57,215 bases of DNA from Lachnospiraceae bacterium (GTDB lineage Bacteria > Bacillota > Clostridia > Lachnospirales > Lachnospiraceae): assembly GCA_030526195.1 (NCBI GenBank), contig JAUNDG010000016.1, positions 1 to 57,215 of the forward strand, read 5' to 3'. The notes below the pieces were generated by a model. It was not told where the DNA came from. It was given only the letters and a program-made list of their open reading frames with translations, and ran no database searches. Below, piece by piece: positions 280-46,943 of the stretch (position 1 is the first letter of the stretch; every line of letters starts with the position of its first letter). A program made the translations under genes and the position numbers.

Positions 280-1209
280 TCAATTGCCGGACATAAAGTT
301 CTCCTGGACGCGGCGATACAGTTCCTTAGCGGCATTATAGCCCATGCGTTTCTGTCTGTGGTTGATGGCCGCCGTTTCCACGATGACCGCCAGGTTACGG
401 CCGGGACGGACCGGGATGGCATGACACACCACTTTGTTCCCTAAATACTCGATGTATTCATCCTCGAGACCGAGGCGATCGTATTCGCGGGTCTTGTCCC
501 ATTCCTCCAGTTTGATCACCAGATCGATCTGTTTGGTATTGCGCACATGTTCGACACCGTACAGGGTCTTCACATCGATGACACCGATACCCCGCAGCTC
601 GATGAAATGACGGGTGATATCCGGGGCCTGACCCAGCAGGGACACATCGGACACACGACGGATTTCCACCACGTCATCACTGACGAGACGATGACCGCGG
701 CGGATCAGTTCCAACGCCGCCTCGCTCTTACCGATACCGGAGTCCCCGGTAATCAGAACGCCTTCACCGTCAACGTCCACCAGAACACCATGAATGGAAA
801 TGCAGGGGGCCAGCTCATAGGACAGCCAGCGGATGACTTCCGCCATGAAATCACTGGTAGCCCGCTCTGTGGTGAACACCGGCACATGATAACTGTTGGC
901 CATGGCCACCATGTCATCTGTCGGCACGGTCTGTGTGGTAAAGATCACGCAGGGAATGTCCCGTTGCAGGAACCGTTCAAAGGACTGCATCCTCTCCTCT
1001 GTTTCCATCTGCATGATATACGTATATTCCACGTACCCGATGATCTGAACACGTTCGTTAGCGAAATGTTCATAATACCCGGCCAGCTGAAGCGCCGGTC
1101 GGTTGATCTCGGTGGTACGGATCATGATCTTGTCAAGATTGATTTCCGGCGACAGGCATGTCAACCGCATAGCCTCCGCCAGTTTGGCTAAAGAAACCTC
1201 ATTTACCAT
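280..1209 (-). CDS. hprK: HPr kinase/phosphorylase
   Basis: 309 residues, the usual length for HprK. The enzyme phosphorylates and dephosphorylates Ser46 of HPr and of Crh, and is the sensor of carbon catabolite repression in Firmicutes. The P-loop GDSGIGKS is at about 155-162 and is preceded by GVLVDVDGEG. The C-terminal part contains RGIGVIDVKTLYG, typical of the family. The ATG start at 1209 has GGGAG about 8 nt upstream. It is the last gene of a leftward group with uvrC, separated from it by a structured spacer. A Crh-like substrate candidate lies at 23.7-23.9 kb. Identification is secure. Confidence 0.96.
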   Translation of the reverse strand: MVNEVSLAKLAEAMRLTCLSPEINLDKIMIRTTEINRPALQLAGYYEHFANERVQIIGYVEYTYIMQMETEERMQSFERFLQRDIPCVIFTTQTVPTDDMVAMANSYHVPVFTTERATSDFMAEVIRWLSYELAPCISIHGVLVDVDGEGVLITGDSGIGKSEAALELIRRGHRLVSDDVVEIRRVSDVSLLGQAPDITRHFIELRGIGVIDVKTLYGVEHVRNTKQIDLVIKLEEWDKTREYDRLGLEDEYIEYLGNKVVCHAIPVRPGRNLAVIVETAAINHRQKRMGYNAAKELYRRVQENFMSGN

Positions 1210-1235
1210 AAGACTGCTCCCTTCGTCATATATCT

Positions 1236-1369
1236 ATCGGACATCCGTGAAGCGGACACGCGCAATATACGCAGGGCACGATGCCCGCTTCGCTGCTTGC
1301 TCGTGAACCACAGCTACCTTCGGTAGCCCATCAGCAGGGGCTTTTACCCCTGAATGACCTCTGTCCGAT
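1236..1369. repeat. 134-bp intergenic element with terminal inverted repeats
   Basis: The spacer between uvrC and hprK is bounded by ATCGGACA (1236-1243) and TGTCCGAT (1362-1369), an 8-bp perfect inverted repeat. Inside are GAAGCGG/CCGCTTC (1249-1255 with 1285-1291), GGGCA/TGCCC (1274-1286), GCTACC/GGTAGC (1313-1327) and CAGGGG/CCCCTG (1335-1352). Part of it (CGGACAnnCGCAATA..C.CAGGGC) recurs at 46919 and 54870. It may be a MITE-like element or a folded RNA in the uvrC-hprK transcript. Confidence 0.55.
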
Positions 1370-1388
1370 TTCATCCATTATAACACAT

Positions 1389-3284
1389 TCAGTCCTCTGA
1401 TTCTGCCTTCGGTTGTGTGTTATTTCTGAAAAAATCAAAGACAGACCGGGCCGCCGCCTCGTTCATGCCGGGAACGGCCTTCAGCGTATCCACATCGGCC
1501 AGACGAATCTCTTCAATCGTTTTGAAATGCTTCATCAGCGCCCGCCGTCTGGTGGTGCCGATACCGGGAATATCATCCAGTACGGAATGCACCTGTCCCT
1601 TGCTCCTTAAAAGCCGGTGATACTCGATGGCAAACCGGTGGGCCTCATCCTGAAGCCGGGTGATGAGCTGGAACACCTCTGCGTGGCGATCCAGCATGAT
1701 TTCCTTGTTATGAAAATACAGCCCCCGGGTCCGGTGATTGTCGTCTTTTACCATGCCCGCCACGGGAATCGACAGCCCCATTTTCGCAAGGACAGACTCC
1801 GCAATATTCACCTGACCGCGGCCGCCGTCCATCATGATGAGATCCGGCAGCCGTTCAAAGCCCTGGGAGCCCTCTGAGGCCCGTTTGAAGCGGCGGGTGA
1901 GGACTTCCTCCATGGAGGCGTAATCGTTGGGGCCGATGACCGTTTTGATGCGGAATTTCCGGTAATCTGTCCGCTTGGGCCGGCCCTTTTCATAGACCAC
2001 CATGGAGCCGACGGATTCAAAGCCGCTGATGTTGGAAATATCGAAGGCCTCCATCCGCTCCGCCGACGGGATACCCAGAAGCTCCGCTATCTGCCGGACG
2101 GCGCCGGCGGTACGCAGTTCTTCCCTTCTGAGGCGCTCTCTGTCCCGATTTAAGACCATCGCCGCATTCTCCGCAGCCATGGTGACCAGTTTCTCCTTGA
2201 TGCCCTTCTGGGGGATCCTGATGGCCACACGGGCGCCCTTCTTCCGGGTCAGGTAGTCGGACAAGAGTTCCCGATCCGGCAGATCAAAGGGCAGCATCAG
2301 TTCCCCGGGGATATAGGGTGTACCGGAATAATACTGGGTGATGAATTCCGACAGCAGAATCGCCGGATCCTCCGTCTCATTGACTTCCATATAAAAATGC
2401 TCCCGGCCGATGAGTTTGCCGTTCCGGACAAAGAAGACCTGGACCACGCAGTCGGCCTGCAGGAGGTCTGTCTGCGCCGCATCCGAGGCGCTGTTGACAG
2501 CAATGGCCATCACGTCCCGGTCATCACCGCCGGTGCCCGTGATCTTCTGCCGCTCCGTCACCTGGCGGATGCTGTCAATGAGATCCCGATAACCGGCCGC
2601 CTCCTCGAAACGCATATCCTCAGAAGCCGCCATCATTTTGTCTGTGAGGGACGCAATTTCCTCATCCACATGACCACCCAGAAATGACACGGCCTTCTTC
2701 ACCTGCTCCCGATAGGCTTCCTCGGACTGATGCCCCAGGCAGGGGGCCTCACACTGCCCGATATGATAATAGAGGCAGGATTCCGTTTTTCCCGGCACGA
2801 TCTTTTTCCGACAGGGCCGGATCTTATACAGCTTCCGCACGAGATCGATGGTATCCCTGACCGCCGTCACATTGGTAAAAGGGCCGAAATACCGGCTGCT
2901 GTCCTTGCGGATCTGACGAGCCAGCTGCACCTGGGGCCAGGTTTCGCCCACGGTCACCTTGATGAAGGGATAGGTCTTATCATCCATCAGCATGGTGTTG
3001 TACTTCGGCCGATGCTCCTTGATAAGATTATTTTCCAGCACCAGAGCCTCCAGCTCGCTGTCCGTAACGATGTACTCAAAATGATGAATGCGGCCGATCA
3101 TGCTCTCGATCTTGGGCCCCCGGGCCGACCGCTGACTCTTCTGAAAATACTGCCGCACCCGGTTCTTCAGACTGACCGCCTTGCCCACGTAAATGATCTC
3201 GTCGGTCTCATCATGCATGATGTAGACCCCGGGCTGCGCCGGCAGCTTCTTCAGTTCTTCCTCAATAACAAAATCGTTTTCCAT
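1389..3284 (-). CDS. uvrC: excinuclease ABC subunit C
   Basis: UvrC makes both incisions around DNA lesions during nucleotide excision repair, after damage recognition by UvrA and UvrB. The N-terminal GIY-YIG nuclease is visible (PGVYIMHDETDEIIYVGKA). A UVR motif lies near residues 205-240 (EDMRFEEAAGYRDLI), the RNase H-like endonuclease domain occupies the C-terminal half (EAFDISNISG, MMDGGRGQV), and a helix-hairpin-helix pair closes the protein (DDIPGIGTTRRRALMKHF). An ATG three codons upstream (3293) is possible, but AGGA sits at proper distance only from the ATG at 3284, giving 631 residues. It is transcribed toward hprK. Confidence 0.96.
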   Translation of the reverse strand: MENDFVIEEELKKLPAQPGVYIMHDETDEIIYVGKAVSLKNRVRQYFQKSQRSARGPKIESMIGRIHHFEYIVTDSELEALVLENNLIKEHRPKYNTMLMDDKTYPFIKVTVGETWPQVQLARQIRKDSSRYFGPFTNVTAVRDTIDLVRKLYKIRPCRKKIVPGKTESCLYYHIGQCEAPCLGHQSEEAYREQVKKAVSFLGGHVDEEIASLTDKMMAASEDMRFEEAAGYRDLIDSIRQVTERQKITGTGGDDRDVMAIAVNSASDAAQTDLLQADCVVQVFFVRNGKLIGREHFYMEVNETEDPAILLSEFITQYYSGTPYIPGELMLPFDLPDRELLSDYLTRKKGARVAIRIPQKGIKEKLVTMAAENAAMVLNRDRERLRREELRTAGAVRQIAELLGIPSAERMEAFDISNISGFESVGSMVVYEKGRPKRTDYRKFRIKTVIGPNDYASMEEVLTRRFKRASEGSQGFERLPDLIMMDGGRGQVNIAESVLAKMGLSIPVAGMVKDDNHRTRGLYFHNKEIMLDRHAEVFQLITRLQDEAHRFAIEYHRLLRSKGQVHSVLDDIPGIGTTRRRALMKHFKTIEEIRLADVDTLKAVPGMNEAAARSVFDFFRNNTQPKAESED

Positions 3285-8944: not shown

Positions 8945-9154
8945 CGCAATACCTCCATTTGTTTCTTTTTGTTACTGTTTACGGTTTCCTAAATGGGGTA
9001 TGATCACATACCCAGCCATGTGTGTGCTCACATGACCTTTCCGGCGAAATGACACGCCGGTTTTAAGCACCTCTCATCGCGATGGTTTCCATCTGCCGAG
9101 TTAAAAACCTGTGCAGCCGCGTACAGGTTTGGTTTCGAGGTTAGGACAGTTCAA
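8945..9154 (-). promoter_or_regulatory. structured rpmJ-rpsM spacer, candidate attenuator and leader
   Basis: This is the largest gap inside the ribosomal operon. On the transcribed (minus) strand it begins with AACCTGT/ACAGGTT (9106-9112 with 9123-9129) followed by TTTTT, a terminator-like hairpin about 25 nt after the rpmJ stop. Three further perfect stems follow: CCGGCG/CGCCGG (9041-9060), CATGTG/CACATG (9018-9035) and GGGTATG/CATACCC (8996-9013). An mRNA leader controlling rpsM-rpsK-rpsD-rpoA-rplQ is inferred, not proven. Confidence 0.55.
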
Positions 9155-21734: not shown

Positions 21735-21958
21735 AAAAAAAGTCGCCTCCTATTCGCACTTTTTATAGTACGACAAGTGGTGACTGTACATATCTCCGTG
21801 CGTGTCCTTATGACTCGCACAAAATTTTCCGCCAGATATCGGCGGATTTTTGCACAGTGACTTGTCGCCAGTTTCCTAACATGACCTTCGCTCCACGGAG
21901 AACCTGCCACAAGGGCAGCAACTTCACGCTTCATAGCTATCATGTCACAGCACAATCT
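21735..21958 (-). promoter_or_regulatory. structured 5' leader of the S10 operon, candidate r-protein regulatory RNA
   Basis: About 220 nt between the promoter and rpsJ. 21771-21790 can pair with 21851-21867 (two 8-bp helices around an internal loop), enclosing the hairpins GTGCG/CGCAC (21799-21820) and TCCGCC/GGCGGA (21828-21846). That is a three-way junction. A further hairpin TGCC/GGCA-type (21904-21918) lies nearer the 5' end. The layout suggests autogenous control by a ribosomal protein (L4 or another), which is inference. No terminator-like T run is evident in it. Confidence 0.55.
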
Positions 21959-45868: not shown

Positions 45869-46822
45869 TTACAGCACTTCCACCAATTCGATGTGGAAGT
45901 TCAGTTCTTTGCCAGCCATCTCATGATTGGCATCGAAGGTGATGGTCTCATCATCCTTAGCTGTCACGGTGACCGGGAAGGTCTGGCCGCCCATGCCCTG
46001 AAGGTAAACCTTCTGGCCCACAGACAGGGTTTCGGAGCCCGGCATCTCAGCGATCTTCACATTGATGATGGCTGCCGGATTCACCGGACCGTAAGCTTCC
46101 TCCGGCATCAGATGGATGTCGATGGATTCACCCACTTCCATGTTGGCTACAGCCGCATCATAACCTCTGATCATCATGCCGGCACCGCAGACAAATTCAA
46201 GGGGTTCGCCTCTGTCATAGGAGGAGTCAAACTGTGTGCCGTCATTGAAGGTACCTCTGTAATGGGTCCGGCAGGTCTTGCCCACGTTCTTCCCTTCGAT
46301 GCCGCTCCCCTGGCAACCACAGCCACCGCCGCAGCCACAACCACAGCCACAGTCCTCTGAATCATCACTGCAGCCACAACCGCAACCGCAATCATCATCG
46401 GCTGACGCGCTGTTGCAACCACAACCACAGCCGCAATCATCATCGGCTGACTCACTGCCGCAACCACAGCCACAGCTGTCATCGTCGTGGTCATGATGAT
46501 GGCAATTGACACCGGCACTGACAAGCTCACCGCGCAGGTAAGCGGCCACCGCATCATCTGTATCACCTGTCACACCGGAGCAAACCTCAACACCGCGATC
46601 ATCAAGCGCCGCCTGAGCCTCGCTGCCGATACCACCGCAAATGAGCACATTAATGTTATGAATCCCCAGCAGGCTGGCCATGGCGCCATGACCGCTGCAG
46701 TTGGCATCGATCACTTCAAAGGAACGGATCTTGCCCTCTTCCACTTCATAAATCTTAAACTGCTTAGCATGACCAAAGTGCTGGAAGACCTGGCCATTTT
46801 CAAAAGTAACCGCGATTTTCAT
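45869..46822 (-). CDS. fusion of NifX/NifB-C-like domain, Cys-rich repeats and SlyD-type FKBP prolyl isomerase
   Basis: 317 residues in three parts. Residues 1-103 match the dinitrogenase iron-molybdenum cofactor-binding family (FENGQVFQHFGHAKQFKIYE, LICGGIGSEAQAALDDRGVE), small proteins that hold metal clusters. Residues 107-172 carry a His/Asp cluster (HHHDHDDD) and near-perfect repeats of DDDCGCGCGC, totalling 18 cysteines. Residues 178-317 are a SlyD-like FKBP with insert-in-flap chaperone domain (DGTQFDSSYDRGEPLEF, PEEAYGP, DANHEMAGKELNFHIELVEV). SlyD proteins normally carry a metal-binding tail at the C-terminus; here the thiol-rich region lies between the domains. A role in metal storage or delivery with folding help is inferred. 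No signal peptide. Confidence 0.88.
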   Translation of the reverse strand: MKIAVTFENGQVFQHFGHAKQFKIYEVEEGKIRSFEVIDANCSGHGAMASLLGIHNINVLICGGIGSEAQAALDDRGVEVCSGVTGDTDDAVAAYLRGELVSAGVNCHHHDHDDDSCGCGCGSESADDDCGCGCGCNSASADDDCGCGCGCSDDSEDCGCGCGCGGGCGCQGSGIEGKNVGKTCRTHYRGTFNDGTQFDSSYDRGEPLEFVCGAGMMIRGYDAAVANMEVGESIDIHLMPEEAYGPVNPAAIINVKIAEMPGSETLSVGQKVYLQGMGGQTFPVTVTAKDDETITFDANHEMAGKELNFHIELVEVL

Positions 46823-46842: not shown

Positions 46843-46943
46843 ATGGGGCTGCCGTCCGAAGACAGCAGTCCCATAATGTACTGTTTTTTCTGTTTTTCAA
46901 TGTCCGGGGTGTGTCAATCGGACACTCGCAATACCCACAGGGC
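46843..46943. other. hairpin and CGGACA motif copy in the pda-fusion gap
   Basis: ATGGGGCTGCCGTC and GACAGCAGTCCCAT (46842-46873) pair with a CGAA loop. At 46917-46943 lies ATCGGACACTCGCAATACC plus CACAGGGC, closely related to parts of 1236-1280 and 54870-54895. TGTCCG at 46901 can pair with CGGACA at 46919. Confidence 0.5.

Follow-up and report, generated by a model that had tools for sequence, protein, structure and literature searches.

The window analysed here, that is the whole stretch of 57,215 nucleotides from a Lachnospiraceae bacterium, carries on its minus strand a gene for a protein of 317 amino acids, with its ATG start at 46822 and its stop at 45869. The initial annotation had placed a NifX-like domain, an 18-cysteine linker and a SlyD prolyl isomerase in one frame at 45869..46822. 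These coordinates are correct, and the Pfam matches together with the 317-residue frame bear out the composition. The Nitro_FeMo-Co family (PF02579) matches residues 9-96 (E 2.6e-21, 76.2 bits for a cut-off of 26.3) and FKBP_C (PF00254) matches residues 180-253 (E 2.6e-19, 69.8 bits for a cut-off of 21.1), and no NTPase domain was found in the protein with Pfam. In the source genome, the fusion is the sole gene matching PF02579, and PF00254 matches are observed in five genes.

To know how widely this architecture is shared, as the initial annotation had proposed to do, we scanned 84,980 species genomes. At least 579 of 595 candidate stretches code for a relative of the window protein, and the best 80 of these at least 579 relatives were kept for analysis. 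Their matches extend from residues 1-10 as far as residues 306-317, the identity of the best segment is 57-64%, and the fusion forms a single open frame in 80/80 loci. These 80 come mostly from Lachnospiraceae and related gut Clostridia, as far as the names of metagenome bins, which may err, can be followed. Of 220 genomes sampled within the family at one per genus, with one exception, 38 have the fusion, as one open frame in each of the 38, and 7 have a close stand-alone FKBP. At a threshold of 1e-30, which more divergent fusions could escape, 4 of 368 genomes of a phylum sample possess it, 3 from the same family and 1 from another. In the set of relatives, it is carried by 16 of the 42 genomes of the same genus, the window counted, and the distribution is therefore patchy; the 15 further loci all display one open frame. 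Among the 38 genomes of this set lying outside the genus, the sole fusion (L098) belongs to another family of the order. The two outcomes against which the initial annotation had warned, an assembly error and a lack of homologues with the same fusion, as well as a chance frame, are thus ruled out by the single fused frame of the 80 kept loci and of the other genomes: the fusion is real, since it is found in many related bacteria. In the portions available of the open-licence literature of PubMed Central, no paper appears to describe a NifX–SlyD fusion; domain databases may well list the architecture. The final trees and counts given below rest on proteins sorted by BLAST of the two halves, with 128 distinct fusions.

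The NifX-type domain comprises residues 1-104 (46511..46822, minus strand), with H15-F16-G17, a His-Phe-Gly motif known from NifB, NifX and NafY, as well as H45 and C62. H15, F16 and G17 are kept in 79 of 81 aligned proteins, the two exceptions being rows whose called frame starts late, and H45, C62, C107 and H110 are kept in all 81; the HFG motif is present in 126 of the 128 distinct fusions. The window protein reaches 25.7 bits with the NifX model TIGR02663, under its cut-off of 112, and 78.7 bits with the MrpORP model NF041136, whose cut-off is 450, this last match covering model residues 265-365 only.

The SlyD-type FKBP occupies residues 177-317 (45872..46294, minus strand). In sequence alignments, the FKBP1A-SlyD chimera 5i7p pairs with residues 177-315 and the Thermus SlyD 3cgm with residues 202-316, the insert-in-flap region being included in both cases. 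The HYxG, FDSS, R, F, IRG and AYG positions have aligned counterparts in 5i7p, and particular positions among them presumably belong to the PPIase site. The NCBIfam model PRK10737.1, which we take to be the SlyD model, its name itself being without SlyD, gives 58.7 bits, under a cut-off of 174. The protein ends in ELVEVL, and a C-terminal His/Cys tail is absent from all 128 fusions, with 0-2 His and Cys in the last 25 residues. The description of this domain as a complete SlyD-type FKBP consequently holds for the PPIase and insert-in-flap parts, as judged from the two alignments, but not for the C-terminal metal tail.

Between the two domains, residues 107-171 (46310..46504, minus strand) form a putative metal-binding linker that begins with CHHHDHDDD and continues with CGC-rich repeats. 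It comprises 18 Cys, 4 His, 13 Asp, 2 Glu and 16 Gly, and no Lys or Arg. At the DNA level, a tandem unit of 45 bp in 2.4 copies (46370..46476, minus strand) codes for the DDDCGCGCGC repeats that had been noticed beforehand, and two exact copies of the motif are present. The Cys codons are 9 TGC and 9 TGT, and the repeat copies thus differ at silent positions. With its 18 Cys, this linker is an outlier among the fusions. The usual type is CDHHGEGHSCGDHEEGHSC, with a median of 6 Cys (10th-90th percentile 5-9) and of 8 His, and the sum of Cys and His is at least 8 in 128/128 distinct fusions. After the window, the most Cys-rich linkers are those of L007 (14 Cys) and L119 (11 Cys), and two or more CGC motifs are encountered in only 2 of the 128, namely the window (12, overlapping) and L119 (4).

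The comparison with proteins having one half only sheds light on the origin of this region. All 23 NifX-only proteins bear Cys and His near the C-terminus, at least 3 and with a median of 10 over their last 25 residues, whereas in the 8 close stand-alone SlyDs the last 30 residues include 1-2 His but no Cys. For this reason, the linker is best read as a tail belonging to the NifX-type module, and the plain reading would be that a NifX-type protein plus its tail was joined onto the front of a tailless SlyD, which would thereby have gained a putative metal site on its N-terminal side. The idea of a thiol-rich region set between two metal-linked domains is therefore right as concerns the architecture, which is conserved, but the region is not a special bridge, since it corresponds to the C-terminal tail found on stand-alone NifX proteins from the same bacteria.

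In the FKBP tree, the 128 fusions and three stand-alone SlyDs (L146, L165 and L166) are split from the five other stand-alone SlyDs with a support of 0.977. No NifX remnant was detected upstream of the 8 stand-alone SlyDs checked, and the short segment preceding the FKBP in the fusions is left in 3 of the 8, which are L146, L165 and L166. Since these three nest among the fusions and keep this segment, a later loss of their NifX part is suggested. In the NifX tree, the 128 fusions are split from 19 of the 23 NifX-only proteins (support 0.993) and the four most distant NifX-only proteins lie on the same side of this split as the fusions, so that a strict single origin is unproved. The distances measured on the NifX and FKBP domains are correlated (Mantel r 0.67, with 0 of 999 permutations as high), and the two domains have therefore mostly travelled together.

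A second NifX fusion exists in these bacteria. Five long frames of this kind were seen, and in the three tested (L099:1123-1905, L175:1727-2509 and L103:1132-1905) DUF134 and a NifX-type domain with its Cys/His tail are joined in one frame, both Pfam domains being above cut-off. As in the window protein, the same NifX-type module with a Cys/His tail is fused to another domain; however, DUF134 is N-terminal and the tail is at the C-terminus, whereas the fusion has a C-terminal FKBP. One might guess that the DUF134–NifX protein is a metal- or cluster-sensing regulator. With the fusion, the DUF134 protein and MrpORP, three partner types are known for the NifX-type domain.

The surroundings of the gene are not conserved. 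In the 78 loci examined out of the best 80, we observed no conserved neighbours, the commonest neighbour family being present in 11 of the 78 at varied positions, and the neighbourhood points to no client. An operon partner was also looked for, and none recurred in 62 of 81 loci, nor again over 78 of the 80. Upstream of the window gene, a weak candidate promoter, TTGAAA–16 nt–CATTAT (46873..46900, minus strand), has 9 of 12 consensus matches; promoter-like matches in that region number 3 for 1.2 expected. Between this presumed promoter and the start codon, a hairpin with a UUCG loop (46845..46872, minus strand; folded stretch -20.4 kcal/mol) lies immediately upstream of the ribosome-binding region in the presumed 5' leader. 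None of the other fusion loci examined showed this stem. A common upstream regulatory motif was rejected as well: AT-rich 8-mers reached at most 10 of 119 as compared with 5-6 in simple shuffles, and they were scattered or came from close relatives. Elsewhere in the window, two ribosomal protein leaders, S10-Clostridia (21862-21942) and S4-Clostridia (8988-9041), were recognized, both on the minus strand.

The fusion resembles the SlyD proteins of E. coli, H. pylori and Thermus in that an FKBP with an insert-in-flap and a Cys/His/acidic stretch are found in one chain. However, the C-terminal tail is missing, the metal stretch stands before the FKBP, and a NifX-type domain is added at the N-terminus. 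According to the available excerpts of two papers, SlyD from E. coli and H. pylori binds Ni through its His/Cys tail, holds its partners through the insert-in-flap part and has HypB or a nickel permease as its target (PMC7840056; PMC10653786), and an excerpt of the latter paper gives 2-50 residues for the C-terminal metal tail of known SlyDs (PMC10653786). MrpORP from Desulfovibrio likewise joins a NifX-type (Di-Nase) domain to an effector, with HFG and terminal C-x-H motifs, but its effector is a P-loop NTPase whereas that of the fusion is an FKBP. The Di-Nase domain, which belongs to the same Pfam family, is described in the accessible part of the report as binding a [3Fe-4S] cluster, with CXHFGHCE and a C-terminal CDH as proposed ligands (PMC6345978). 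In the fusions, FQHFGHTE mostly stands in place of the first motif and NCDHH in place of the second, and the fit is therefore partial.

The HFG motif is also shared with NifX and NafY. Its His, His121 in NafY, is the key FeMo-co ligand according to the excerpt at hand (PMC8496260). Unlike those proteins, the fusion has no nif operon context at its locus and scores far under the NifX cut-off. Another comparison concerns IssA, the thioferrate storage protein of Pyrococcus, in which, according to the partial text, a low-complexity tail, cationic and with one Cys, comes after an IPR003731 domain (PMC5524996). The order of an IPR003731 domain and a low-complexity stretch is the same in the fusion. 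However, the linker contains 18 Cys, and residues 107-171 being devoid of Lys and Arg, an IssA-like storage through a cationic Gly/aromatic tail was rejected.

It had been stated that no nif, hyd or ure genes are nearby. This is true within the window as far as it was read, but the same genome encodes elsewhere HypB, a HypA-like protein and a NifH/NifE-like protein. HypB is above the curated cut-off and the HypA-like protein, with 74.4 bits, is under its cut-off of 88.1; CooS has no match in this genome. On contig C16 (L171:186-4399), hypB and the hypA-like gene flank a 928-residue flavin/4Fe-4S oxidoreductase, and no hydrogenase was found in the 8 kb examined. On contig C39, a 769-residue protein made of NifH/CfbC-like and NifE-like halves adjoins a further nitrogenase-like frame (L176:1619-3925 and 292-1812, minus strand).

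We thus analyzed the co-occurrence of metal enzymes with the fusion over the 220 genomes of the family sample, 38 with the fusion and 182 without. HypB is present in 17/38 fusion genomes and 44/182 others (p=0.016), UreG-like GTPases in 7/38 and 8/182 (p=0.006, post hoc), and the union of both, chosen after its parts had been seen, in 22/38 and 50/182 (p=0.0005), these p-values, like all others here, being uncorrected for kinship and for the number of tests. Out of the 15 proteins of the UreG-like set, the 7 that were scanned are all UreG and the other 8 rest on the score of the HypB profile. Within the genus, the HypB link is absent (9/16 versus 14/26, p=1.0), and 10 of the 38 fusion genomes are without any of four nickel markers. 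A hydrogenase client was therefore not retained, its signal being weak in the family sample and gone within the genus. Neither CooS (10/38 versus 37/182, p=0.39) nor LarA (10/38 versus 39/182, p=0.52, for a set of 49 genomes with strong matches defined by our own cut, weak partial matches being left out, where the curated cut-off gives 71/220) is enriched with the fusion, and the CODH CooS and lactate racemase were rejected as clients on this basis. A nitrogenase partner was rejected likewise, NifH over cut-off being found in 4/38 fusion genomes versus 25/182 (p=0.79) and NifH-like genes in 14/38 versus 52/182 (p=0.33). Altogether, a nickel client for the fusion is only hinted at. In the same sample, any match to the NifX-FKBP query goes with CooS (40/128 genomes versus 7/92, p=2e-5), in a set of 128 genomes where stand-alone FKBPs and weak matches are counted too; taken by itself, the fusion shows no such link.

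We propose, with moderate confidence, that the window protein would be a cytoplasmic metallochaperone–prolyl isomerase, that is a rearranged SlyD. Because the parts of SlyD are present in another order, we take it as such an enzyme with an added cofactor-binding domain. The fusion probably handles metals. The two domains, the conservation of their fusion, the NifX-tail origin of the linker and the missing SlyD tail are established by the present data, and we infer metal binding, PPIase activity and hand-over to a client from the known relatives. On this basis, the insert-in-flap part of the FKBP would bind unfolded or unfinished metalloproteins, and the domain would speed up proline isomerisation. 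The Cys/His/Asp stretch, as the tail of the NifX-type domain, could bind several transition-metal ions, most likely Ni or Zn and possibly Fe or Cu, and keep them beside the client. An additional metal or metal-sulfur ligand may be bound at the NifX-type domain by His15 of the HFG motif, and this binding would couple loading to the supply of metal or Fe-S. The SlyD tail being C-terminal and the metal stretch of the fusion N-terminal, the mechanism need not carry over from one to the other. The metal-chaperone interpretation that had been made at the outset is partly supported.

Another possible function, which we hold to be somewhat improbable while taking it seriously, is that of an Fe-S carrier or maturation chaperone, the NifX-type domain holding an Fe-S or mixed-metal sulfide cluster, the Cys stretch relaying it and the SlyD part holding the apo-client. 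Anaerobes are rich in Fe-S proteins, and the co-occurrence of any NifX-type match with CooS, an Fe-S/Ni enzyme, points in the same direction, but this co-occurrence is lost when the fusion itself is considered. The linker rich in His and Asp that is usual among the fusions also fits divalent ions better than Fe-S, and the first Cys of CXHFGHCE is replaced by Gln in most members (FQHFG). This explanation nevertheless comes close because, in the parts available of the two reports, the MrpORP domain binds a [3Fe-4S] cluster (PMC6345978) and SlyD from E. coli and H. pylori contacts Fe-S assembly proteins, an H. pylori slyD mutant containing little MisSU (PMC10653786).

One could also wonder whether the linker acts as a small metallothionein for metal buffering or detoxification, the folded domains being secondary. 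The 18 Cys and 12 overlapping CGC motifs of the window, and the 11 Cys and 4 CGC motifs of L119, would suit such a role, which we consider unlikely since this Cys-rich form is rare among the 128 linkers and since, of all sections of the fusions, the FKBP part is the best conserved (68-78% identity in the separate matches listed for the fusions with the closest scores), which would be odd for a secondary domain. Very unlikely in our opinion is a neutral flexible spacer whose long CGC form would have drifted through repeat slippage: the extra length of the window linker is indeed due to the 45-bp tandem repeat, which was not seen in the 15 other fusions of the genus, but Cys and His are kept in every linker and the repeat copies differ at silent positions. 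As for a chaperone of a nitrogenase-like cofactor, in which the NifX-type domain would serve the NifH/NifE-like protein encoded elsewhere in the genome, the existence of this 769-residue protein beside a further nitrogenase-like frame speaks for it; we find it highly improbable in view of the TIGR02663 score and of the lack of NifH enrichment with the fusion.

A speculative and rather doubtful hypothesis would be that of a one-chain machine that metallates its client as it folds: the NifX-type domain would carry a metal or cluster, the thiol/imidazole stretch would relay it, and the SlyD part would hold the client open until it is metallated. The NifX-type domain and its tail could then be a plug-in metal module for varied partners such as the DUF134 protein and the prolyl isomerase, and the Cys-rich form of the window would reflect a shift from a His-type (Ni/Zn) to a thiol-type (Cu/Zn/Fe-S) cargo.

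SlyD is an example of a prolyl isomerase that carries metal as well, and the fusion would represent a similar layout that has evolved with the metal stretch on the opposite side and with a cofactor-binding domain in addition. If the SlyD part does hold a client to which the NifX-type domain hands metal or Fe-S, metal supply and folding would be joined in one chain, in bacteria that are common in animal guts. This would provide a testable role for NifX-type proteins where nitrogenase is not the client, and the split forms, with NifX alone, SlyD alone or both fused, make testing simple.

Finally, the sole other match of the fusion query in its own genome, a weak one, is an ABC transporter ATPase whose tail is Cys-rich and contains CGCGC (L177:4866-5771, contig C23). 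Its neighbours are a CobW-type GTPase, a RACo-type activator, an NMT1-type binding protein, a permease and a URO-D family protein.
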